Shown: one piece after another, positions 1 through 12,269 of the stretch
How positions within the stretch are numbered: the first letter of the stretch is position 1
Layout of the letters: each line of letters begins with the position of its first letter
NCBI GenBank assembly: GCA_002479245.1
Contig: DLMG01000333.1
Location: 1 to 12,525 of the forward strand
Direction of reading: 5' to 3'
Length of the DNA stretch: 12,525 bases
Source of the DNA: Verrucomicrobia subdivision 3 bacterium UBA7542
GTDB lineage: Bacteria > Verrucomicrobiota > Verrucomicrobiia > Limisphaerales > UBA11358
Notes under the pieces: model-generated
The model's database searches: none
Seen by the model: only the letters and a program-made list of their open reading frames with translations
What the model was told of the DNA's origin: nothing
Program-made: the position numbers and the translations under genes

Positions 1-354
1 AATGTTTATCTGCCGCCGGGAACCTGGATTGATTATCAAACCGGAAAATCCTACGACGGCGGCTGGCAAAAAATCGAGGCCGGCAAACTTCCGGTCGTGA
101 TGCTCGTGCGTGACGGCACGGTGCTGCCGCAAATCAAGCTCGCGCAATCCACCCTGCAGATGGATTGGTCGCAACTGGATCTCGTGGTCTTCGCCAAAGA
201 CGCCCAGACCGCCAAAGGCCTGGTTTATCTGCCCACGGACAATGTGCTGCGCGAGCTATCGTTGAACAAGAGCGGCAACACGTTCAAACTGGCGGACGAT
301 CCGCTGTCTGGCAAAGTCATCTGGAGTATAAAACAACCGTTCGGGCAGCGATAA
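1..354 (+). CDS. GH31 glycoside hydrolase, probable alpha-xylosidase (3' end only)
   Basis: The reading frame is open from base 1, so this is the last 117 codons of a gene that starts outside the window. The visible part opens with the GH31 proximal C-terminal domain signature VYLPPGTWIDYQTGK, followed by a G-G-W, an 'M-L-V-R-D-G-T-V-L-P' strand and the motif 'I-K-L-A-Q-S-T'. This is the usual GH31 pattern of 'V+LP.G.W.D..TG' followed by a 'R.G..+P' strand. The catalytic barrel is not in the window, so activity cannot be read directly. Alpha-xylosidase is inferred from the downstream GH3 and GH74 genes. The tail lacks the DUF5110-like end seen in the other GH31 of this window, so the two are different subtypes rather than recent copies. 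The next gene follows after 105 nt on the same strand and may be co-transcribed. Confidence 0.82.
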   Translation, partial: NVYLPPGTWIDYQTGKSYDGGWQKIEAGKLPVVMLVRDGTVLPQIKLAQSTLQMDWSQLDLVVFAKDAQTAKGLVYLPTDNVLRELSLNKSGNTFKLADDPLSGKVIWSIKQPFGQR

Positions 355-459
355 CCCAGGAATAACCGGACAAAAGGCGCACACTTTCGCGGCGACAAAT
401 ACGTGAAATGTTCGTTTTTTATCGGTAGGCGGACCAAGTTTTTGCACAAATCTAACATC

Positions 460-2631
460 ATGAAATGCCGAGCACATTCACTGCCTGCACTTTGCCTGCT
501 TTGCACCGTGCTCATCACGCCGGCTCACGCCCAATATCAATATCCATTTCAAGACCCGAACCTGCCGGAGGAAGTGCGCGTCACCAACATGGTTTCGTTG
601 ATGACGTTGGATGAGAAAGTGGACCTGCTGCGATTTCGTTCCGGCGTTTCACGGCTCGGCATCCCGCGGCTGGGTTCCGTCGAGGGCATTCATGGCGAAG
701 CAATGGGAGGAGTGGCCAACTGGGCCCCGAATCCACCCATCCCGACGACCATATTTCCGCAAGGGATTGGCATGGCCGAAACCTGGGACACGGAGGTTCT
801 CCGCCAGGCGGGCGCAGTGGAAGGTTACGAAGTGCGGTACATCGCGCAGAATAAAAATTACCACCACACAAACCAGCTCGTCGTCTTTGCGCCAAACGCG
901 GATTTGGGCCGCGATCCACGCTGGGGCCGGACGGAGGAATGTTACGGGGAGGACCCCTTCTTCAATGGAACGATGGCGGTGGCGTTCATCAAGGGACTCC
1001 AAGGCGACCACCCGAGGTATTGGCAGACCGCATCGCTGTTGAAACATTTTTTTGCCAACAGCAATGAAGACGGCCGCGATAGTTCCTCGTCCGATTTCGA
1101 CGAACAACTTTTCCGTGAATATTATTCCGTACCGTTCCGGATGGGGTTCGAGGAAGGTGGCGCACGGTGCTTTATGGCGTCCTACAACGCCTGGAATAAA
1201 ACTCCCTGCACCGTTCAGCCGGTCATCAAAAATGTGGCCATGAAGGAATGGGGCGTGGACGGAATCATTTGCACCGACGCCGGCGGCTATCGCAACCTCG
1301 TCAATCAATACCATTATTTTGCCACCACGAATGAAGCGGCCGCGGCCTGCATCAAGGCAGGCATCAACCATTTTCTGGACAATTATCGCGCCGGCGTGAC
1401 TGGCGCGCTCACCAACAAACTCCTTTCGGAAGCCGATCTCGACGAGGCCATCAAAGGCGTGTTGCGAATCCATGTCCGGCTCGGTTTGCTGGATCCGCCA
1501 ACGAACAATCCCTACGCCGTCATCGGCACGATCTCCGAACCCGAACCGTGGACCACGCCGGAACACAAGGCCGTTGCGCGGCTGGTGACGCAGAAATCCA
1601 TTGTCTTGCTTAAGAACTCGGAGAATCTTCTGCCGCTGGATAAGACCAAACTCAAGTCCATCGCCGTCATCGGCCCGCGGGCGAACGAGGTCCTGCTCGA
1701 CTGGTACAGCGGCATGCCGCCTTACATGGTCACGCCACTGCAAGGCATCACCGACAAGGTTGGCCCCGGGATCACCGTGAGCTTCGCCACCAATAACGCC
1801 TACGGCGAGGCCGTCAAAATCGCCCGGGCCGCCGACGTGGTGATTGTGTGTGTCGGAAATCATCCCAACGGTGACGTCACGAACTGGGCAAAGGTCGCCC
1901 TGCCCAGTTACGGCCGGGAAGCCGTGGACCGAAAGTCCATCACCCTGGAGGACGAGAAGCTGATCAAGCAAGTTTATCGGGCAAATCCAAAAACCGTCGT
2001 TGTGCTCATTTCCAGCTTTCCGTATGCAATCAACTGGACCCAAAAACATGTTCCGGCGATTGTTCATATGACGCATTGCAGCCAGGAGGAGGGGAACGCA
2101 CTGGCGGACGTCCTGTTCGGCGATTACAACCCGGCCGGGCGGCTGGTCGAGACCTGGCCAGTGTCACTCAAGCAACTGCCGCCCATGATGGATTACAACA
2201 TTCGACATGGGCGCACTTACATGTATTTCAAGGGCAAAACTCTGTATCCCTTCGGCTATGGCTTGAGCTACACGACGTTCGAATATTCCGATTTAAAAAC
2301 GAGTGCGCCGACACTCGCCAAAGACGGCTCCCTTACCGTGAGCGTAAATGTTAGAAATACCGGCAACCGGGCGGGCGAAGAAGTCGTCCAGCTTTACACC
2401 AAACGTCAGAAATCGGCGTTGGAACACCCGATTCAAGAACTCCGGGGATTCAAACGGGTGGCATTTCAACCCGGCGAGCAGAAGACGGTTGAAATCCCTT
2501 TGACAGCGAAATCGCTGGCCTATTGGGACGAAGCTCAACATGGCTGGACCGTTGAGAGCGGGGTGATTGAGGTCCGTGTTGGCGGCTCTTCGGCGGACAC
2601 ACGTTTAAAATCTGCCATCACCGTCGAGTAA
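460..2631 (+). CDS. Secreted GH3 beta-glucosidase / beta-xylosidase-type enzyme
   Basis: Family 3 glycoside hydrolases remove single beta-linked sugars from non-reducing ends by a retaining mechanism. I place the start at 460 because translation from there gives a clean signal peptide (MKCRAHSLPALC through a THAHA-like A-H-A/Q site near residue 24). The in-frame ATG at 403 would add 19 basic and polar residues in front of it. The N-terminal barrel shows G-R-D-P-R-W-G-R, then K195-H196-F197 and the M-A-S-Y-N motif. The likely nucleophile is Asp273 in C-T-D-A-G-G. The second domain contains G-R-E-A-V-D-R, whose Glu is a candidate acid/base, and N-P-A-G-R-L. A fibronectin-III-like domain closes the protein (about residues 635-723). 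Length (723 aa) is normal for the family. Beta-glucosidase acting on xyloglucan oligosaccharides is inferred from the neighbours; beta-xylosidase or arabinosidase cannot be excluded. Only 9 nt separate it from GH74. The 105 nt upstream hold no recognisable promoter or SD. Confidence 0.9.
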   Translation: MKCRAHSLPALCLLCTVLITPAHAQYQYPFQDPNLPEEVRVTNMVSLMTLDEKVDLLRFRSGVSRLGIPRLGSVEGIHGEAMGGVANWAPNPPIPTTIFPQGIGMAETWDTEVLRQAGAVEGYEVRYIAQNKNYHHTNQLVVFAPNADLGRDPRWGRTEECYGEDPFFNGTMAVAFIKGLQGDHPRYWQTASLLKHFFANSNEDGRDSSSSDFDEQLFREYYSVPFRMGFEEGGARCFMASYNAWNKTPCTVQPVIKNVAMKEWGVDGIICTDAGGYRNLVNQYHYFATTNEAAAACIKAGINHFLDNYRAGVTGALTNKLLSEADLDEAIKGVLRIHVRLGLLDPPTNNPYAVIGTISEPEPWTTPEHKAVARLVTQKSIVLLKNSENLLPLDKTKLKSIAVIGPRANEVLLDWYSGMPPYMVTPLQGITDKVGPGITVSFATNNAYGEAVKIARAADVVIVCVGNHPNGDVTNWAKVALPSYGREAVDRKSITLEDEKLIKQVYRANPKTVVVLISSFPYAINWTQKHVPAIVHMTHCSQEEGNALADVLFGDYNPAGRLVETWPVSLKQLPPMMDYNIRHGRTYMYFKGKTLYPFGYGLSYTTFEYSDLKTSAPTLAKDGSLTVSVNVRNTGNRAGEEVVQLYTKRQKSALEHPIQELRGFKRVAFQPGEQKTVEIPLTAKSLAYWDEAQHGWTVESGVIEVRVGGSSADTRLKSAITVE

Positions 2632-2640
2632 TTCTAACGT

Positions 2641-4899
2641 ATGGAAAAATCTGTTAAATTCCGTGGCGCCGTCGGGCTGATCGCGCTGGGTTTGGCCTGC
2701 TCTGCGCTGGCGCAATCCATGAATTCCCAGCCCCCGCCATCAGAGCCGTATCTCTGGCACAACGTGGCCATCGGCGGTGGCGGGTTTGTCACCGGCATCA
2801 TCCCTCATCCCTGCCAAAAAGGTTTGATGTATGCACGCACCGACGTTGGCGGCGCCTATCGCTGGGACGACTTCGTCCAACGATGGATTCCCCTCACCGA
2901 CGGGATTGGCGATGTTGATTTTACCGGCATTGAAAGCCTCGCGGTGGATCCTTCCGATACCAACCGCGTTTATCTGGCGGCCGGAATTTACAGCGGGGGG
3001 AAGGCCGCCATCTTGCGCTCCGCCGACCAGGGCCGCACCTGGCTGCTCACGGAAGTCCCGTTCAAAATGGGCGGCAACGAAGCCGGCCGCTTCAACGGCG
3101 AACGGCTCGCCGTGGACCCGAATGACGGCGGCATCCTCTTTTTCGGTTCACGCCGCGACGGATTGTGGAAAAGTACCGACCGGGGGGCGACTTGGCAGAA
3201 GGTGGAAGGTTTCCCGAATGTCAGTTCCCGCGAAGCGGCGTCAGGAGACGACTCCCGGCCCCGGTTCGGCTTCAACCAGCAGCCGGTCGGCATTGTCTGC
3301 GTTTTGTTTGACCCGGCCGGCAGCCGGCCCAGCCAGCCCACGCCCGTGTTGTATGCCGCCGTCTCCACCACGGAAACCAACCTCTATCGCAGCACCGACG
3401 GCGGGGGCGCCTGGCTGGCGGTGGCCAACCAACCCGTGGGCTTGTGTCCCAATCACCTCGTTCGGGCCTCTGATGGGACCCTTTATCTCAGCTATGGCAA
3501 GGAGCCCGGCCCGAATACGATGACGGATGGCGCGATCTGGAAATTCAACCCGAAAGACGGCGTCTGGACGGACATCACGCCAGTCAAGCCAAAGGATTCC
3601 GACCAGCCGTTCGGCTACGGCTGCGTCGCGGTGGACGCGCAAAATCCGTCCACGATCATGGCCACGACGTTCTGCCACTGGAAACCGCACGATGAAATTT
3701 TCCGCAGCACGAACGGCGGCTTGACCTGGACACTACTCTGGCAGACCAACACAGCCGTGTGGGATTATTCCAGCGCGCCGTACACCCAGACCCGCACGCC
3801 TCATTGGATGGGCACCATCGTAATCAACCCCTTTGATTCGGATCAGGTTTTGTTCACCACCGGCTTTGGCATCTGGTGCTGCACCCATGTCACGAAAGCC
3901 GATTCCGGCAAGCCGACGCACTGGGTCTTTCTCGACCGGGGACTCGAAGAAACGGTGCCGCTGGCTTTGATCAGTCCGCCCGCCGGCGCCCATTTGATCA
4001 GCGGCGTGGGCGACATTGACGGGTTCCGCCATGACAACGTGGATGTTTCACCAGCGGAAGGGTCCTTCGCCGGGCCGCGATTGTCGAGCACGCGAGACCT
4101 GGCGTTTGCCGCCAACAAACCCGAAGTGATGATCCGCATCGGCAACGGTGGTAGAGACATGTCGGCGCACGCCATCATCTCCGCAGACGGCGGCAAAACC
4201 TGGAAAGCCCTCGCGAGTGATCCCCCGGGCGGGAGTGGTGGACAAGGCAGGATTGTCTTGAGCGCCGACGGCAGAACCATTGTTTGGGCGTTGCAACGCG
4301 GTTCGGCCAGCTTCACCACGGACCGTGGAGTAACCTGGACCAACTGCGAGGGACTTTCCTCCGGAGTCAGTGTCGTTGCCGATCCGGTCAATGCTTCGCG
4401 TTTCTATGCGTTCGACGGCCAGACTGGCAAGCTGATGGCCAGCACGAATTCGGCCGCAACGTTTGAACCGACTGCGGCAGCACTCCCCAGTTCGCAGGGT
4501 GCCGGTCGCGACGGCGGCGTGTTGGCAGCCACTCCGGGTCTGCCGGGAGATCTGTGGGTTGGCTCCCGCGGGATCGGCCTTTACCACTCCACTGATGGCG
4601 GAGCCTCTTTCACCAAGCTGAACAAGGTCGGCGGCGCGGACGCACTCGGCTTCGGAAAGGCAGCGCCCGGGAAAACTTTCCCCGCGCTCTACCTGCTGGG
4701 AAACATCGAACAACTTCACGCCGATTACCGTTCCGACGACAACGGCCAGACTTGGGTGCGCATCAACGACGACCAGCACCAGTTCGGCGCTCCCAACCGC
4801 CCGATCATCATCGGCGACCCGCGCATTTATGGCCGGGTTTACCTGACCACTGGCGGCCGGGGCGTCATCTACGGAGCCCCGGATTCCACCTCAAAATAA
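2641..4899 (+). CDS. Secreted GH74 xyloglucanase
   Basis: GH74 enzymes cut the beta-1,4-glucan backbone of xyloglucan with inversion, using two aspartates in a cleft between two seven-bladed propellers. The protein (752 aa) starts with a signal peptide ending near A-L-A-Q (residues 23-26). The first family motif is A-R-T-D-V-G-G-A-Y-R with Asp68. The second is S-G-V-G-D-I-D-G-F-R-H with Asp458. The 390-residue spacing fits two propellers. At least eight Asp-box/BNR-like repeats of the S-x-D-x-G-x-T-W type are spread along the chain (for example R-S-A-D-Q-G-R-T-W, K-S-T-D-R-G-A-T-W and F-R-S-T-N-G-G-L-T-W). No carbohydrate-binding module or dockerin is appended. Exo or endo mode cannot be settled from the sequence. 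His388-Trp389 stands where processive relatives have two tryptophans. The gene lies 9 nt after GH3 and 3 nt before the next gene, so one mRNA is likely. No clear SD precedes the ATG (TCTAACGT-ATG). Confidence 0.92.
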   Translation: MEKSVKFRGAVGLIALGLACSALAQSMNSQPPPSEPYLWHNVAIGGGGFVTGIIPHPCQKGLMYARTDVGGAYRWDDFVQRWIPLTDGIGDVDFTGIESLAVDPSDTNRVYLAAGIYSGGKAAILRSADQGRTWLLTEVPFKMGGNEAGRFNGERLAVDPNDGGILFFGSRRDGLWKSTDRGATWQKVEGFPNVSSREAASGDDSRPRFGFNQQPVGIVCVLFDPAGSRPSQPTPVLYAAVSTTETNLYRSTDGGGAWLAVANQPVGLCPNHLVRASDGTLYLSYGKEPGPNTMTDGAIWKFNPKDGVWTDITPVKPKDSDQPFGYGCVAVDAQNPSTIMATTFCHWKPHDEIFRSTNGGLTWTLLWQTNTAVWDYSSAPYTQTRTPHWMGTIVINPFDSDQVLFTTGFGIWCCTHVTKADSGKPTHWVFLDRGLEETVPLALISPPAGAHLISGVGDIDGFRHDNVDVSPAEGSFAGPRLSSTRDLAFAANKPEVMIRIGNGGRDMSAHAIISADGGKTWKALASDPPGGSGGQGRIVLSADGRTIVWALQRGSASFTTDRGVTWTNCEGLSSGVSVVADPVNASRFYAFDGQTGKLMASTNSAATFEPTAAALPSSQGAGRDGGVLAATPGLPGDLWVGSRGIGLYHSTDGGASFTKLNKVGGADALGFGKAAPGKTFPALYLLGNIEQLHADYRSDDNGQTWVRINDDQHQFGAPNRPIIIGDPRIYGRVYLTTGGRGVIYGAPDSTSK
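3315..3329. repeat. Intragenic GC palindrome in the GH74 gene
   Basis: GGCCGGC-A-GCCGGCC is a perfect 7-bp inverted repeat around one base. It lies inside the GH74 coding region, in the stretch coding for D-P-A-G-S-R-P-S-Q-P, which looks like a loop between propeller blades. It shares the GGCCGG core with the stronger inverted repeat at 9860-9879. It could simply be a by-product of Pro, Ala and Gly codons in GC-rich DNA. Confidence 0.45.
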
Positions 4900-4902
4900 T
4901 CC

Positions 4903-6825
4903 ATGAAACATTCTCATTCTCTGGCCTGCATTCTGTCGGCGCTCATCCCCTCCCTCGCCCTGTTGTTCCCCGGCATTGGTCGGGCCGGCAATTATACCAA
5001 CTTCGACGTCGCCATCTACATCCCTGTCGGCGTCGTACAACATTTCGAAAACCTCGAAAACCTGACCAACGATTGGGACCGCATCCACCGCCAGTTGAAG
5101 GTGGACAAGGTGTACATCGAAGTGCAGCGGAACCGCACCCTGGCGACGGATGAAGAACTGGAGACGGTCAAGAAGTTCTTTGTGGACCGCGGCGTCAACG
5201 TGGCCGGCGGCATGGCGCTGTCGGATGGCGGCTCCGGCCAGTTCCGCTCGTTCTGCTACACCGATCCCGCCGACCGCCAGTTCATCAAGGGCGCGGCGGA
5301 ACTCGCCGCCCGGCATTTCGACGAAATCATCCAGGACGATTTCTTCTTCGTCACCACCAAAAACGACTCGGACATCGCCGCCAGGGGAACGAATACCTGG
5401 ACGGAGTTCCGGCTCAAGCTCATGGACGAGGCCGCGGAAAATCTCATCATCAAACCGGCCCGCGCCGTGAATCCCAAGGTCAAACTCATCATCAAATTCC
5501 CCAACTGGTACGAACATTTCCAGGGCCTGGGTTACGACCTCGACCGGGAACCGAAGCTGTTCGACGGCATCTACACCGGCACCGAAACCCGCGACCCGGT
5601 CATCACCGACCAGCATTTGCAGCAATACGAGAGCTACCTCATCATCCGTTACTTCGACAACATCAAGCCCGGCGGCAACGGCGGCGGCTGGGTGGACACC
5701 TACAGCATCCGATACATTGACCGCTACGCCGAGCAGCTTTGGGACACGATGTTCGCCAAGGCGCGGCAGATGATGCTGTTCGAATGGTCGGCGATGAGCC
5801 GCTCCATCCAACCGGGAGACCGCGCCGCCTGGCAGGATTTGCACACGAGTTTCGATTACAACCAGTTGTGGCAGGCCTGGACGAACTACGCCCCGGCCGG
5901 ATTGCCCGAACCCACCATCGCCCGTGTCGCCGGCTATGCCCTGGAACAGGTGGACCCGTTCCTCAGCCAGCTCGGCAACCCCATCGGCATCGCCGGCTAC
6001 AAACCGTATCAGTCCACCGGCGAGGATTTCCTGCACAATTATCTCGGGATGATTGGCATTCCCATGGACCTGTATCCGGAATTCCCGACCAACGCGGGCT
6101 TGGTCCTGTTGACCGAGTCGGCGAAGTCCGACCCCGACATTGTCGCCAAAATCAAGGGCCAGTTAACCGCCGGCAAATCGGTGGTCATCACCTCCGGCCT
6201 GTTGCACGCGCTCCAGCACCGGGGCATCGAAGACATCGTCGAGGCGCGGTACACCGATCACAAGGTGCTCGCGCATGAATATTCCGGCGGCTTCGGCTCC
6301 GGCAACGGCTCGGTGCTTGACGGCGGGAAAAACGAGGACGTCCTGTTCCCCGAAATTTTCTTTCTCACGAACGACGCTTGGCCGGTTGTCCGTCTTCTGG
6401 CCAACGGCAACGGCTATCCGCTCCTGCTCATGGACCGGTATTCCAAGGGCGTCCTTTACATCTGGACGATGCCGGAAAATTTCACCGACCTTTATTCGCT
6501 GCCCCCAAGCGTCACTAGCGCCATTAAAAATTACGTTATGCGCGGGTTCCCCATCCGGCTGGACGGCCCCGGCCAGGTGGCGCTGTTCGCCTATGACAAC
6601 CACACATTCATCGTGGAATCATATTTGCCTGCCGAAACCGACGTGAAGGTTTCATTGACCGGGAATTTCACCCGCCTGAAAAACCTGGTCACCGGCGAAG
6701 TGATTAACAGCCAGGCCCCGACGCAGGGCCGCGGCCGCTGGCGGGACGCCGAGGAAAGCCGCATATCCTTCAATCTCCATCTCCCGCCCCACAGCTACGC
6801 CGTCTTCGCCGCGGAGAAAAGGTAG
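4903..6825 (+). CDS. Unrecognised secreted protein, candidate TIM-barrel glycoside hydrolase
   Basis: I do not recognise the family. The 640-residue product starts with a signal peptide (hydrophobic L-A-C-I-L-S-A-L-I-P-S-L-A-L-L-F, cleavage near residue 28). After it come strand-like segments spaced as in a beta/alpha barrel: V-D-K-V-Y-I-E-V, V-A-G-G-M-A-L, E-I-I-Q-D145-D146-F-F-F, K-L-I-I-K-F-P-N-W, G-I-Y-T-G-T-E228-T-R-D and M-M-L-F-E294-W. Acidic residues at strand ends are candidates for catalysis, a guess from fold logic. Residues of about 390-440 (G-L-V-L-L-T-E-S-A through G-K-S-V-V-I-T-S-G-L-L) resemble a Rossmann-like glutamine-amidotransferase fold such as GH42 has after its barrel. 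The end (A-L-F-A-Y-D-N-H-T-F-I-V-E-S through H-S-Y-A-V-F) looks like a beta-sandwich. The start lies 3 nt after the GH74 stop, so co-translation and a role in xyloglucan breakdown are likely. Sure of the gene, unsure of the function. Confidence 0.88.
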   Translation: MKHSHSLACILSALIPSLALLFPGIGRAGNYTNFDVAIYIPVGVVQHFENLENLTNDWDRIHRQLKVDKVYIEVQRNRTLATDEELETVKKFFVDRGVNVAGGMALSDGGSGQFRSFCYTDPADRQFIKGAAELAARHFDEIIQDDFFFVTTKNDSDIAARGTNTWTEFRLKLMDEAAENLIIKPARAVNPKVKLIIKFPNWYEHFQGLGYDLDREPKLFDGIYTGTETRDPVITDQHLQQYESYLIIRYFDNIKPGGNGGGWVDTYSIRYIDRYAEQLWDTMFAKARQMMLFEWSAMSRSIQPGDRAAWQDLHTSFDYNQLWQAWTNYAPAGLPEPTIARVAGYALEQVDPFLSQLGNPIGIAGYKPYQSTGEDFLHNYLGMIGIPMDLYPEFPTNAGLVLLTESAKSDPDIVAKIKGQLTAGKSVVITSGLLHALQHRGIEDIVEARYTDHKVLAHEYSGGFGSGNGSVLDGGKNEDVLFPEIFFLTNDAWPVVRLLANGNGYPLLLMDRYSKGVLYIWTMPENFTDLYSLPPSVTSAIKNYVMRGFPIRLDGPGQVALFAYDNHTFIVESYLPAETDVKVSLTGNFTRLKNLVTGEVINSQAPTQGRGRWRDAEESRISFNLHLPPHSYAVFAAEKR

Positions 6826-6852: not shown

Positions 6853-6928
6853 CAGTAGGCTCCCTTGATCAATCTTTGTATGATTGATTCCACCGGAAAA
6901 GCCGCTACGCTTTCAAAGCGAAGCCCGA

Positions 6929-8680
6929 ATGAAAACACACCGTGCATTTCTTTTCCCGGTTCTAATTGCAGCATTGATCGGAATCATCCTGATGCTGTCC
7001 GCGCGCGAACCACGTTATCGGGGGCGGTCGCTGATCAGTTGGTTGCAGCAGTATTATTATACTGCCTTGGATCAACCTCAACGCCGTCAGGAAGCGCAAC
7101 AAGCCGTTCTTGCCATGCCGCTCCACAAGGTTCTGCCCAGATTGCTCCGGATGGTTGAAGCCACGGACGACCCGGTCAGCTTATGGCTCATTGATAAAAC
7201 TGGCGAATTCAGAATCCGATTTCTCAGATGGAGTTCATCGGAACGTTATTCCTATGAGGATTGGCAACGAATCCAATGGCGTTCAGCAGAAGCTTTTCAA
7301 CAGCTTGGCATCGCCGGTTTTGAAATCTTGGGAACGAATGCGGCACCCGCGGTTGAAGAACTGGAAAAACTGCTTGATGAAAAAGATCACGCCTTCGACG
7401 CCAAGCGGTGTTTGGACTCTATCGGCAAACCCTCTGAACCGGTCTACTGCCGGGCACTGACCAATCAAGATGCGGACATCAGACAGTGGGGCATGGATGA
7501 ATTGGCGGCGGTCACCGATGATGTTGAGGTTTATATCGCCCGCATCAAAGACCGGCTTAAGGATTCCTCGGAGGCAGTGCGGGCTACCGCCGTGGATGAC
7601 ATTGGAATTCAGATGTCCGCGCCGGAATTGGCCGTTCCTCTCCTAGTCGCGGCTTTGAAAGATTCTTCCGATTTGGTCAGTTCGCACGCTGCGAGTTCAC
7701 TTGGTAATTTCGGCACGAATGTACTGGTCGCTTTTCCAATTTTGACAAATCTCGCGAGCGGCGTTGGAAACGCAGCAAGCGCGGCGTTAAGGACTCTAAC
7801 AATCATCGCGCCGGACAAAGCATGGCCCATTTTTACAAATTACCTTGCGCAGGGAAAACCAGGGATCAATGGCGCATTGAGTGCATTGACTGAGGTCATG
7901 CCAGACAAAGCACTGCCGATTGTTCTGGCTCGCTTGCAATCGCCTAGTATCGCCGTGCGGCACGAGGCGTTCGGACTATTACGCCATTATCCAGTGACTT
8001 CACAAATAGATTCAGCGATGCAAACCGTCGTCGCCGATTCCGATTTCGATCCCAACCTCGCCCTGGCCGCAAAAGGATTCCTGACCGATCAATATAAAAC
8101 CAACCATCCGGACGCATTATTATTTTCTGACGAACCGAGTTACAACGGCAAGCGATTGGGCGAATGGTTGGAAACGCGCATCAAAGGCGGAGGTGATTTG
8201 ACACCGGCGGCAAAAGACGCAATTCATCAAGTGGGAACCAACGCAATTCCCGCCTTATTGAAACGACTGACTTATGTGCGGCCACCATATTGTTTCAGTC
8301 CTTTCCAGATTAACATCAATGCCGCCATCGGATTTATTACACTGGGCGAACAGGCCAAACCCGCGTTGCCAGAGTTATGGATGCTCATGGACAGCACCAA
8401 CCAGGAGATTGCCCTGACCGCTATGATTGCCACCTTCGGAACCGGCTCAAACGCCATGCCCTTCCTGATCAAAGGATTGACCAACCAGTTTCCCAATGTT
8501 CGCAATGAAGCCGCCAATAGTTTGACGGATGGAATTGGCAAAGATTTTCCCGAATTGCGCCGTCAGGCTGTTCCTCTCTTTAAAAAACTTTTGAATGATC
8601 CAGATGAAGATGTTCGCAGCAATGCGACGAATGAACTTAAACAAATTGACCCTGTAGCGGCGGCCAAAGCGGGAATATAA
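6929..8680 (+). CDS. Membrane-anchored HEAT-repeat protein
   Basis: The product (583 aa from the chosen start) has one N-terminal hydrophobic segment (about residues 7-25, F-L-F-P-V-L-I-A-A-L-I-G-I-I-L-M-L-S-A) and then a long alpha-helical repeat region. Repeats of the HEAT/armadillo kind are visible as 'D-S-S-x-x-V-R-A-T-A-V-D-D-I', 'S-S-H-A-A-S-S-L-G-N-F', 'S-P-S-I-A-V-R-H-E-A' and 'F-P-N-V-R-N-E-A-A-N-S-L'. The start at 6929 puts the hydrophobic segment at the very N-terminus; an in-frame ATG at 6884 adds 15 residues and is less likely. The module E-P-x-Y-x-G-[KR]-x-L-x-x-W-L occurs twice, at residues 27-39 and 402-414, which suggests duplication. HEAT proteins are scaffolds for protein binding; no enzymatic motif is seen. 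The stop overlaps the next start by one base. Sampled GC is lower (31/60 at 7861-7920, 29/60 at 8101-8160) than in the upstream genes (38/60 at 5641-5700). Confidence 0.85.
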   Translation: MKTHRAFLFPVLIAALIGIILMLSAREPRYRGRSLISWLQQYYYTALDQPQRRQEAQQAVLAMPLHKVLPRLLRMVEATDDPVSLWLIDKTGEFRIRFLRWSSSERYSYEDWQRIQWRSAEAFQQLGIAGFEILGTNAAPAVEELEKLLDEKDHAFDAKRCLDSIGKPSEPVYCRALTNQDADIRQWGMDELAAVTDDVEVYIARIKDRLKDSSEAVRATAVDDIGIQMSAPELAVPLLVAALKDSSDLVSSHAASSLGNFGTNVLVAFPILTNLASGVGNAASAALRTLTIIAPDKAWPIFTNYLAQGKPGINGALSALTEVMPDKALPIVLARLQSPSIAVRHEAFGLLRHYPVTSQIDSAMQTVVADSDFDPNLALAAKGFLTDQYKTNHPDALLFSDEPSYNGKRLGEWLETRIKGGGDLTPAAKDAIHQVGTNAIPALLKRLTYVRPPYCFSPFQININAAIGFITLGEQAKPALPELWMLMDSTNQEIALTAMIATFGTGSNAMPFLIKGLTNQFPNVRNEAANSLTDGIGKDFPELRRQAVPLFKKLLNDPDEDVRSNATNELKQIDPVAAAKAGI

Positions 8681-9183
8681 TGAAAACGCACCCCAACCTC
8701 ATTGATTACGTCCGCCGGTTCGGAGTTTTGGCGGGGATAATCCTTTTGGCCGTCCCCGCGAAGGCCAACCCGATTCCGCTGCCTGAAAAATCCGTCACGC
8801 CGGAAATTTCCTTCATCATCGCCTTCGCCATTCTGTTGGAGGTGATTTGCATTTGGTTGATTCTCCGGCGCTCCCGCAGGCCGCGTTTTTTTATTCTTTG
8901 GCTGATCGGCCTGCACCTTCTCACCTATCCGTCATTTCTGTGCCTGCTTTGGCTGCTTCAAGATATGCGTCCGGCTTTTGCCGTGGTCAGCGGCGAGGGA
9001 TTGGTCGTGTTGATTGAGGGAGGTTTGATTTATCTGATTTGCCGTTTTGCGGCTCCGGCCAAACCCGAACTCACGGCACCGTCAATTGCCAAATGTTGGC
9101 TGGCTTCATTTATTGGCAATGTCTGTTCGGCGGTAGCATTTCCAATTTTGTTGGCGATTTATGATCATTTTGCTCCCGTCTGA
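8680..9183 (+). CDS. Small polytopic membrane protein of unknown function
   Basis: The product is 167 aa. An N-terminal hydrophobic stretch with an A-K-A-N end (G-I-I-L-L-A-V-P-A-K-A) could be a signal peptide. It is followed by N-P-I-P-L-P-E and four likely membrane helices: about residues 43-64, 69-94, 98-121 and 137-160. A basic loop R-R-S-R-R-P-R after the first helix suggests a cytoplasmic turn. I see no motif that assigns a function. The start codon shares its A with the last base of the HEAT-gene stop (TAATG), which implies translational coupling, so the two products probably work together at the membrane. Both proteins begin M-K-T-H, perhaps by chance. It converges on the - strand genes to the right. 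Confidence 0.78.
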   Translation: MKTHPNLIDYVRRFGVLAGIILLAVPAKANPIPLPEKSVTPEISFIIAFAILLEVICIWLILRRSRRPRFFILWLIGLHLLTYPSFLCLLWLLQDMRPAFAVVSGEGLVVLIEGGLIYLICRFAAPAKPELTAPSIAKCWLASFIGNVCSAVAFPILLAIYDHFAPV

Positions 9184-9392: not shown

Positions 9393-12269
9393 TTATAATT
9401 GAACGATCTGTCGTTCGCCCTGGTATAAAATCACCTTGTCCGGACTGCCGGTAATTTCCACCCCGGTGCCATGGTCTTTTCCCACAATGACGAGGTTGAA
9501 ACTGCGTTCCTTCAGCATGCCGGGGAAGGCGCCTTTCCGGTCATCGATGGTCAGCCGGCGGTTGGCGTCGTCCCAGTGAAAAGCAATGGTGGCATGGACG
9601 CCTTTTTCATAATTGTAATTGTCGTTCTCATCTTCATAGAGCGTGAAACTTCCATCCGCGCCGGGATAGATGCGCAATTCAATGGGATCAGCCGGTTTTT
9701 CCGCCGCGTATTGAATGAACGGGCCCATGGGCACGATGGAGCCTGACCTGACCAGGAGCGGAATCTTGTCGATAGGAGCATCCGCAACAATCATTTGACC
9801 GCCGGGAAGAGGCTGTCCGGTCCAAAAGTCCACCCATTGATTTCCGGCCGGCAGATAGACCGGCCGGGTGCCCGGCCGGGGCTCGACAATTTTTTCCCGG
9901 GCAAAAATTTCCGGAGTCTTCCAGAAAAGCTGGGCCTTGAAAGCGCCCAGGACCGAATTGGCCGTCTCGCAGGCAAAGTCGTATTCCTTGCCGGCCTGTA
10001 GTTCCAGGGGAACGGTGTAGGATTCCACCGACGAGTAATTGTTTGTCAGTTCCTTGCCGTCCAGGAAGACCCGTTTTGGACCGAAGCTTTTGAAATGGAA
10101 GCGATAGGTCCCGGTTTCCGTCGGAACCAGCTTGCCCTCCCAGCGCATCGAGAATTTGGGACTGGTAATGTAATCCGGCCAGCCGGTGTACCAGTAAAGG
10201 TTGACGTTGGTCTCCACCTGTTCGTGACAGAGAGTCTTGAACTGGTCGTCACTGTAATATTTTGCGGTCAGCCCCGGCTGGCCGTCTTTCGTCCGGAAGA
10301 ATTCCGGCGCTATGGGGATGCTGCTCTCCGGCGGCCGATGGAGCATGTATTCCGTCACCGGACAGACCATGATGGCGGGCCCAAACATAAACTGGTCGTC
10401 AATGGCATAGGTCTTTTTGTCCGACGTAAAATCCATGGGCAGGCCGCGCATGATCGTGTAACCGTTGTCCGTCACCTGCCAGGCCAGCGAATAAATGTAG
10501 GGCATCAGGCGGTAGCGCAGATTGTCGAACTTCACGAGCACATCGGTGAAATCACCAAACTGCCAGATTTCCCGCGGCGTTTCCGAACCGTGCGAGCGGA
10601 AGATGGGACAAAAGGCGCCGAACTGAAACATGCGGGTATAAAACTCCTGATAGGCCGGGTCTTTGCCGCCGTTGGAAAACACCCCTTCGTAGGTGCCGAT
10701 GTTGAAAGCGCCGATATCAAACGTCCAATACGGAATCCCGGCCATGCAGTGGTTGATGCCGGCGGAGATTTGCTTCCGGTAAACATCCCAGTTCGCGCCG
10801 ATGTCGCCCGACCACGTGGTGGCGGCGGCCCGCTGCTGGCCGGCAAAGGTTGAGCGGGTGAGGATATAAACGCGTTTCTGGTCAGTTTCCTGCCGTTGAT
10901 GTTTATAGACTGATTCGGTGTCGAGCAGCGGATAGGTGTTGAGATAGCGGGCGAAGGAACCCAGATGATTGGTCCCCACCCGCTTCATTTCATACTCCTC
11001 CGATTCTTTGGTGATGGCATTGACGATGTCCGGCTCGGTCGAGTCCATCCACCAGCCGTCAATTCCCTGGGAGAAAAGACCTTTGCTCACGTATTGCCAG
11101 TACAGGTCGTTGGCCGCCGGATTATACACATCGAAATATTTGAAGTTGGCCCAGCCCACGGTCGGGTAAAGGTGGCCTCTTTGTTCCATGTCTTTGTAAA
11201 TCGGCGTGGCCGGCCCGAGTCCCGCCCAGATGGAAATCATGAGATGAAAGTTTTCCTGGTGCAGGATATCAATCATCTCCTTCGGGTTGGGGTACATTTT
11301 TTCGTCAAAGAACATGCCGCTCCAGTTGGTGTTGCCGCCCCAGTAATTCCAGTCCTGGACGAGGCCATCAATGGGAATCTGGCGCCGGCGGTATTCCCGC
11401 GCGATGCCCAGCAACTCATCGCGATCCGCGTAATGTTCCTTGCTTTGCCAGTAGCCATAAGCCCATTTGCCGTACATCGGCGCGTGGCCGGTCAAATCCC
11501 GGTATCCGGCAATGATGTCGTCCATGTTCTTGCCGCCGATGAAATAGTAATCAATGTTGTCGGCCACCTCCGACCAGAGCGACATGTTGTCCGGGTTGTC
11601 GGCAAAAATGGTTTTGGAATAATTGTCCCAAAGCAGCCCGTAATCCGCCGTGGAAACCAGGAACGGCGTGACTGCCTGGGTGTTGGCCTGCACCAGTTTG
11701 ACGGTGCGCCCGCGATAATTCATGTAACCGGATTGGTGCTGTCCCATACCATAGATACCTTCCTCCGGCGTCAACGTGAAATTCTGCCGGACACTGAACG
11801 CATTGGTTTCATGCGCGATGCTGACCGGGGTGACCACCGCCTCACCCTGCTCCTGCAAAATGACCCGGCCGGCGCTGTCGAGATATTGAATCGCGCCGTC
11901 GCTCTTGGACAACTGCACGATGACTTTATCGGAAGCCAAGGTGACCGTATCAGCATTCTCCGAGAACTGAACGTTCAACACCGGCAAGTTGGTTTGAATC
12001 ACAACCAAGCTGTTCTTCGCGGCTGTTCCGTTGGGCAGCCACTTAAGGACGCGAACGGTATCGGCGGAATAGAACTGCACTTTGACGTTCAGGGCGGCAG
12101 TGTTCAGCTGAACGCCATTTTGAACGCGTTGGACCGGTGACGGCGGTTGTTGGGCTTGTGCATCTTTCGGTGCGGAAGGTTTCGTCTGACACGAAACCAA
12201 CAGAAAGTTCATGCAGAAGACGCTGAACAAAACCGTTGCTCGCGGGGCGAACGGAAACATTTTTATCAT
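9393..12269 (-). CDS. Lipoprotein GH31 alpha-xylosidase with PA14 insert
   Basis: GH31 alpha-xylosidases release the terminal alpha-1,6-xylose of xyloglucan oligosaccharides with retention. The 958-aa product has a lipoprotein signal with lipobox L-V-S-C (Cys27) followed by Gln, so an outer-membrane anchor is plausible. A Pro/Gln-rich linker leads to an N-terminal beta-sandwich ending with G-Q-H-Q-S-G-Y. The barrel runs from about residue 263 to 590. The nucleophile is Asp409 in W-W-M-D-S-T-E-P-D, and the acid/base is Asp489 in T-W-S-G-D-I-G-A-N. Residues of about 663-795 form a PA14-like domain (G-L-T-A-K-Y-Y through F-L-D-G-K-E-L). Then come VYLPAGNQWVDFWTG and a DUF5110-like end (T-L-Y-E-D-E-N-D). 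Size and parts resemble the Cellvibrio and Bacteroides xyloglucan alpha-xylosidases, though PA14 sits elsewhere. AGGA 12 nt before the ATG is a weak SD. Other GH31 specificities remain possible. Confidence 0.88.
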   Translation of the reverse strand: MIKMFPFAPRATVLFSVFCMNFLLVSCQTKPSAPKDAQAQQPPSPVQRVQNGVQLNTAALNVKVQFYSADTVRVLKWLPNGTAAKNSLVVIQTNLPVLNVQFSENADTVTLASDKVIVQLSKSDGAIQYLDSAGRVILQEQGEAVVTPVSIAHETNAFSVRQNFTLTPEEGIYGMGQHQSGYMNYRGRTVKLVQANTQAVTPFLVSTADYGLLWDNYSKTIFADNPDNMSLWSEVADNIDYYFIGGKNMDDIIAGYRDLTGHAPMYGKWAYGYWQSKEHYADRDELLGIAREYRRRQIPIDGLVQDWNYWGGNTNWSGMFFDEKMYPNPKEMIDILHQENFHLMISIWAGLGPATPIYKDMEQRGHLYPTVGWANFKYFDVYNPAANDLYWQYVSKGLFSQGIDGWWMDSTEPDIVNAITKESEEYEMKRVGTNHLGSFARYLNTYPLLDTESVYKHQRQETDQKRVYILTRSTFAGQQRAAATTWSGDIGANWDVYRKQISAGINHCMAGIPYWTFDIGAFNIGTYEGVFSNGGKDPAYQEFYTRMFQFGAFCPIFRSHGSETPREIWQFGDFTDVLVKFDNLRYRLMPYIYSLAWQVTDNGYTIMRGLPMDFTSDKKTYAIDDQFMFGPAIMVCPVTEYMLHRPPESSIPIAPEFFRTKDGQPGLTAKYYSDDQFKTLCHEQVETNVNLYWYTGWPDYITSPKFSMRWEGKLVPTETGTYRFHFKSFGPKRVFLDGKELTNNYSSVESYTVPLELQAGKEYDFACETANSVLGAFKAQLFWKTPEIFAREKIVEPRPGTRPVYLPAGNQWVDFWTGQPLPGGQMIVADAPIDKIPLLVRSGSIVPMGPFIQYAAEKPADPIELRIYPGADGSFTLYEDENDNYNYEKGVHATIAFHWDDANRRLTIDDRKGAFPGMLKERSFNLVIVGKDHGTGVEITGSPDKVILYQGERQIVQL
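9860..9879. repeat. Strong inverted repeat inside the GH31 gene
   Basis: CCGGCCGGG-TG-CCCGGCCGG is a perfect 9-bp inverted repeat with a 2-base centre, all G/C in the stem. It lies in the coding region for P-R-P-G-T-R-P-V, the linker between the PA14 domain and the distal C-terminal domain. Another GGCCGGC lies just beside it at 9846-9852. In mRNA it would form a very stable hairpin. Confidence 0.6.

Follow-up and report, generated by a model that had tools for sequence, protein, structure and literature searches.

A conserved family of putative secreted glycosidases with a GH42-type chain, represented in a verrucomicrobial xyloglucan gene cluster

The stretch of DNA analysed here (the window) comprises 12,525 nucleotides (nt) of contig DLMG01000333.1 from Verrucomicrobia subdivision 3 bacterium UBA7542, and its gene at 4903–6825 encodes a 640-amino-acid (aa) protein of a family that is seen by the newest Pfam but has no function in the literature that was searched. 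The gene setting is a xyloglucan gene cluster made up of glycoside hydrolase (GH) genes (GH31-GH3-GH74), and the family, judged from its conserved residues and predicted structure, is very probably catalytic: an uncharacterised family of glycosidases whose chain is of the GH42 type and whose conserved pocket is its own. An initial annotation had placed in such a setting an open reading frame (ORF) of 640 aa with a signal-like start, 3 nt past the stop of a GH74 gene (bases 4900–4902 form the gap); the ORF and the matches of its neighbours, listed below, confirm this, and the protein, whose N-terminus looks Sec-signal-like by eye, is probably secreted.

1–354, forward strand: C-terminal end of a GH31-type protein, truncated at the window edge (PF21365 match above cut-off)
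403–2631, forward strand: GH3 enzyme of the β-xylosidase/β-glucosidase type (sequence matches; top solved matches are a β-xylosidase, E 1.3e-90, and β-glucosidases)
2641–4899, forward strand: GH74 xyloglucanase, 3 nt 5' of the studied gene (sequence matches to solved xyloglucanases; 2cn2, E 2.6e-178)
4903–6825, forward strand: gene for the 640-aa protein; family PF28584/PF28585/PF27250, unnamed (ORF, ATG start; accessions from 120 listed homologues)
4903–4986, forward strand: likely Sec signal peptide, residues 1–28 (judged by eye; low-confidence segment of the structural model)
9393–12,269, reverse strand: divergent gene whose product is an α-xylosidase of GH31 carrying a PA14 insert (BoGH31A match, E 7.1e-171)

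The structure of the 640-aa protein was predicted from an alignment of 101 diverse sequences, with a predicted local distance difference test score (pLDDT) of 93.1 and a predicted template modelling score (pTM) of 0.92; an earlier prediction, made with 35 close homologues, had a low pLDDT of 54 and was discarded. The model contains a barrel with strands at residues 35–40 (β1), 69–76 (β2), 99–104 (β3), 141–144 (β4), 194–198 (β5), 222–227 (β6), 259–265 (β7) and 289–293 (β8), followed by two further domains, whose names, like that of the barrel, are an interpretation of strand order and fold matches.

4990–5964, forward strand: (β/α)8 barrel, residues ~30–354 (model; PDB fold matches; the part matched in shorter relatives)
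5989–6552, forward strand: Rossmann-like domain resembling the GH42 trimerisation domain, residues ~363–550 (model; whole-length GH42, GH164 and GH151 alignments)
6553–6816, forward strand: C-terminal β-sandwich, residues 551–638 (model)

In the model, this succession of barrel, Rossmann-like domain and β-sandwich is the layout of GH42, GH164 and GH151, and the best whole-chain fold matches are GH42 and GH164; the GH42-type layout read from the letters in the initial annotation was thus borne out by model and fold search.

At the mouth of the barrel, alignments and model together delineate a conserved catalytic-pocket pattern (E73, R76, D145, D146, K198, W202, Y203, E228, R230, W263 and D265). 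Conservation was read from a first alignment of 101 sequences, including the window protein and reaching down to 26% identity to it, and from a second set of 120 more distant relatives; the combined 221 aligned sequences are not all independent, because one sequence of the distant set, P0242, duplicates L102 of the first at 100% identity. Invariant in the first alignment are E73, D145, D146, R170, N190, K198, E228, R230, W263, D265 and E277, while E73, R76, D145, D146, K198, E228 and R230 show no substitution in the distant set, with 2–4 gaps each.

5119–5130, forward strand: E73 and R76, last part of β2 (E73 in 101/101, R76 in 100/101; each in 116/120 distant relatives, the rest gaps)
5335–5340, forward strand: D145-D146 directly after β4, candidate nucleophile position (101/101 each; 116/120, the rest gaps)
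5494–5511, forward strand: K198 to Y203 after β5, pocket segment with K198, P200, W202 and Y203 conserved (alignments)
5584–5592, forward strand: E228-T229-R230 directly after β6, E228 being the candidate acid/base (E228 and R230 in 101/101; 118/120, the rest gaps)
5689–5697, forward strand: W263-V264-D265 at the end of β7, D265 being a rival catalytic residue (W263 and D265 in 101/101; D265 in 119/120, with one Glu)

As E73, R76, D145, D146, K198, E228, R230 and D265 are practically invariant in the 221 sequences, we take it as very likely that the protein is an enzyme. Were it instead non-catalytic, a dead enzyme fold that binds sugar or serves a structural role, this would agree with the finding of no relative of known activity and no PDB sequence match, but the carboxylates kept at the barrel mouth across all these sequences are the pattern of an active site, and we consider such a protein very improbable. 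The searches also brought up no non-enzymatic family as a strong match. The initial annotation had remarked that the N-E pair of clan GH-A is missing at the end of β4, where D145-D146 stands, and that E228 and E294 follow later strands; the model confirms the absence and places E228 after β6 and E294 after β8. Among these catalytic candidates D145/D146 and E228 hold up, and E294 is rejected, being Glu in 15/101 sequences and in 0/120 distant relatives.

Which of the conserved residues would then carry catalysis? The best explanation, which we put at about even, is that of a secreted retaining exo-glycosidase of an undescribed family, trimming xyloglucan side chains with the β4 Asp (D145 or D146) and E228 as its pair. 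Catalysis by these two residues is itself the best inference from alignment and model, with chances that we would call balanced, and is preferred on the strength of the types of residue and how well they are kept. In a retaining two-step mechanism, the nucleophile would be the Asp at the end of β4, and the acid/base would be E228, which ends β6, these being the positions that GH29 and GH151 use, and the enzyme would probably be an oligomer, as are its structural relatives.

The family is large, with at least 7672 relatives (E <=1e-3) among 7998 scored candidates in a search of 5.8 billion proteins, that is, thousands of related bacterial proteins. Against a Pfam library without PF28584, PF28585 and PF27250, the 640-aa protein matched no family at E <=1, its single NCBIfam match (E 0.086) is meaningless, and no PDB sequence matched it at E <=10, profile search included. 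PF28584, PF28585 and PF27250 are precomputed on the 120 matches listed, one of which is 99% identical to the window protein, and those among them with a source name are called 'hypothetical protein'. Shorter relatives, mostly of ~500–560 aa, carry PF28584 alone or together with one or both of the other two, so that PF28584 most likely corresponds to the barrel. No paper was found on PF28584, PF27250 or PF28585, and the family is not named in the titles or abstract openings of literature on GHL6, GH151, GH42/GH164/GH151 trimers, xyloglucan/GH74/Verrucomicrobia or Cwp19.

When genome contigs were scanned, 118 stretches were confirmed and 79 loci retained, nearly all from metagenome-assembled genomes, with record titles naming Verrucomicrobia, Acidobacteria, Bacteroidetes, Planctomycetes, Ignavibacteria and Proteobacteria. 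Of 387 genomes sampled across the window's phylum, 13 have a match, seven full-length (the window genome counted) and six covering mainly the barrel. Two candidates of the first phylum search (L006, E 4.4e-4; L007, E 5.9e-4) were dropped as weak, and the L006 frame reads like the acyltransferase of a dehydrogenase complex. A second family copy occurs in L009, L015 and L027, and a genome whose record is titled Proteobacteria (G198) holds three, two of them ~4.5 kb apart on one contig; in L033, L075, L080, L081 and L085, and in the second copy of L015, the gene seems to be in two pieces. Four barrel-only relatives of ~390–400 aa (L005, L103, L104 and L106) retain the E73/D145/D146/E228/D265 pattern, and two of them (L104 and L106) have neighbours that by eye resemble β-helix proteins.

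The genomic neighbourhoods were surveyed in loci L008–L086 through ORFs of >=250 aa, called as greedy longest ORFs, and for GH2, 3, 9, 29, 31, 35/42, 39, 42, 43, 74 and 115 only; several of the query proteins had themselves been taken from genes next to homologues, a bias towards the near set. Within 1 kb of a homologue, 30/124 ORFs match these families (GH39, GH31 and GH2 six each, GH9 five, GH74 four, GH115 two and GH3 one), compared with 11/134 beyond 6 kb; within 2.5 kb the figure is 35/203 (Fisher p 0.02 against the far set, for ORFs that are not independent and a near set favoured by the queries). A Pfam scan of 69 same-strand adjacent genes found the same glycosidase families, plus lactonase-like propellers in 5/69; this and the scans of 116 of the 134 ORFs beyond 6 kb and of the 134 nearest of the 203 ORFs within 2.5 kb give lower bounds, as they cover the 25 commonest families. 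The expectation that homologues would be found beside polysaccharide genes is upheld in part: a surveyed glycosidase gene lies within 2.5 kb in 23/77 loci, among them 9 of the 15 that are closest to the window (L008–L023 with a neighbour called) but only 3/21 in L026–L046, largely Opitutae and Acidobacteria. A relative of the window's GH74 stands in the flanks, often short, of 5/79 loci (L009, L014, L015, L020 and L039); in L020, the GH39 protein matches β-xylosidases, and the GH31 protein upstream has as its best matches 5f7c, an α-glucosidase entry, and YicI. The xyloglucan link thus holds for the window and for part of its close relatives but not in general, and the term cannot be extended to the whole family, since neighbours of the surveyed glycosidase families occur in only those 23 loci.

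Within the window's cluster, the GH3 ORF has a GTG start, and as an ATG 19 codons on is followed by a better signal-peptide-like stretch (by eye), the real start may lie there. Downstream of the studied gene, the interval 6884–9183 encodes two proteins that have no evident tie to sugar breakdown: one of 598 aa with HEAT repeats, and one of 167 aa that looks membrane-like and matched no family. Neither tandem repeats nor tRNAs were found in the window. On contigs C348, C110 and C230, outside this cluster, the same genome carries a GH29 gene, a GH42 gene and a GHL10 gene.

In this operon, the substrate of the proposed exo-glycosidase would be a terminal, probably α-linked side-chain sugar on the xyloglucan oligosaccharides released by GH74, with GH31 taking xylose and GH3 glucose or xylose. 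For the sugar removed, α-L-fucose is the best single guess, though on balance less likely than not. The initial annotation had suggested side-chain galactose, whose removal is no obvious gap given the six GH2 neighbours and the GH42 gene of the genome; by the same token, the GH29 and GH42 genes mean that fucosidase or galactosidase activity may be covered outside the cluster.

GH115 enzymes are α-glucuronidases, and a GH115 gene lies within 1 kb in two loci (L063 and L075). Could the sugar be acidic? R76, K198 and R230, which are essentially invariant, might bind a carboxylate in a uronidase or an inverting enzyme, and the settings would vary since several plant polysaccharides share one and the same terminal acidic sugar; the barrel-only relative L005 also adjoins what by eye looks like an α-L-rhamnosidase gene. 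Lys and Arg bind neutral sugars too in many barrel enzymes, and the window's cluster is a neutral-sugar xyloglucan set. We regard this possibility as unlikely.

Should the protein prove to be a glycosidase whose GH42-type chain bears the β4-Asp/β6-Glu pair, it would found an enzyme family of its own. Bacterial degradation of xyloglucan, and perhaps of other plant fibres, would gain a step, and there would be a test case for how catalytic residues switched between clans on such a chain.

The comparison with known glycosidases starts from this pair; the initial annotation had suggested that an unusual one may be in use. The β4-Asp/β6-Glu pair has a precedent in the α-L-fucosidases of GH29 and GH151: in excerpts of one report (PMC10154630), the GH29 nucleophile is an Asp ending β4 with the acid/base at the end of β6, and the pair assigned in GH151 is D154 on β4 together with E235 on β6, while the adjacent subunit contributes a His to the active site. 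D145/D146 and E228 lie at the ends of the strands that bear the GH151 pair, with a spacing of 83/82 residues compared with 81 in GH151, and the three-domain fold of ALfuk2 (GH151, PDB 6tvk) is, in the model, common to both proteins. Reading the active site in the GH151 way leaves one of D145/D146, plus D265, for substrate binding.

Several observations weigh against a GH151-like enzyme acting on fucose. D265 is conserved about as well as E228, in 54/77 loci none of the surveyed glycosidases lies within 2.5 kb, and a GH29 gene exists elsewhere in the genome. In the fold-match table, 6tvk comes only at row 33, below GH42, GH164, PgaB and several GH5 entries (differences of up to 1 Z count as ties), and GH42 is a closer fold to the model than GH151. 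GH151 Mfuc3 matches the Pfam family GHL6, according to part of PMC4723247, and GHL6 (PF14871) matched neither the 640-aa protein nor the 58 family members that were scanned at E 0.5 (23 Pfam families matched); hhalign against it gives an E of 0.0062 at 6% probability, for the Rossmann part alone, which falls short of significance, and the barrel-only P value of 0.034 is slightly bettered by GH42 (0.013), with 0.23 for GH29 and 0.26 for GHL10. The conserved HLDFH and CHH of GHL6 have no counterpart in the family, which leaves a fucose pocket unsupported, and the sequence kinship to GH151 is not significant. Finally, a possibly metal-binding CxCxxC starts 7 residues past D145 in 33/101 family sequences (L101 and L102, for example; the window protein lacks these cysteines). 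In 20 GHL6 proteins (β4 pattern recognised in 15), it starts at the β4 Asp +7 in five, +8 in two, +9 in one and +11 in one; in 15 GH42 proteins, at the Asn of N-E +6 in 14 and +12 in one; and it is absent from 15 GH29 and 15 GHL10 proteins. Because GH42 carries it after β4 too, the motif fails to single out GH151: it is a hint of common descent with the GH42/GH151 group and cannot separate the two.

Another candidate is a clan GH-A-like variant in which D146 takes the acid/base position (second of N-E) and D265 is the nucleophile of a β-glycosidase such as a β-galactosidase. GH42 and GH164 are the top whole-chain folds, GH42 has the lowest of the four barrel P values, D265 ends β7, and D195-D196 of Cwp19 on β4 occupy the positions of GH42 Asn160-Glu161, as stated in a portion of PMC5765458, with D-D likewise here. 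Such a variant needs both catalytic Glu changed to Asp, however, and leaves the invariant E228 without a catalytic role; the GH42 profile (PF02449) has no match in the 640-aa protein (E <=1) or in any of the 58 members, and GH2 and GH42 genes are already at hand, as described above. We find it rather unlikely.

The proposed retaining exo-glycosidase with the β4 Asp and E228 can be set beside each known family in turn. Membership by sequence in GH42, GH29, GHL6/GH151 or GHL10 is unsupported by profile and PDB searches and hhalign, the profiles of GH29 (Alpha_L_fucos, PF01120) and GHL10 (PF02638) having no match in the 640-aa protein or the 58 members. With GHL10/Cwp19 and PgaB the likeness is confined to the barrel, and GHL10 has a conserved Gly at the β7 position where D265 may stand. 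GH42 β-galactosidases have N-E on β4 and a Glu on β7, where this family has D145-D146 and D265; the Glu pair on β4 and β7 that defines GH164, according to part of PMC7105311, and is found in the clan GH-A β-mannosidase Bs164 is likewise absent. A further picture, possible but less likely than not, is that of a GH42/GH164-type chain of clan GH-A that would carry a GH29/GH151-type pair of β4 Asp and β6 Glu, with one −1 sugar kept across several phyla; in the window, this sugar would be removed from xyloglucan side chains as fucose, or as an acidic sugar held by R76, K198 and R230, which the other genes of the cluster may leave unhandled.
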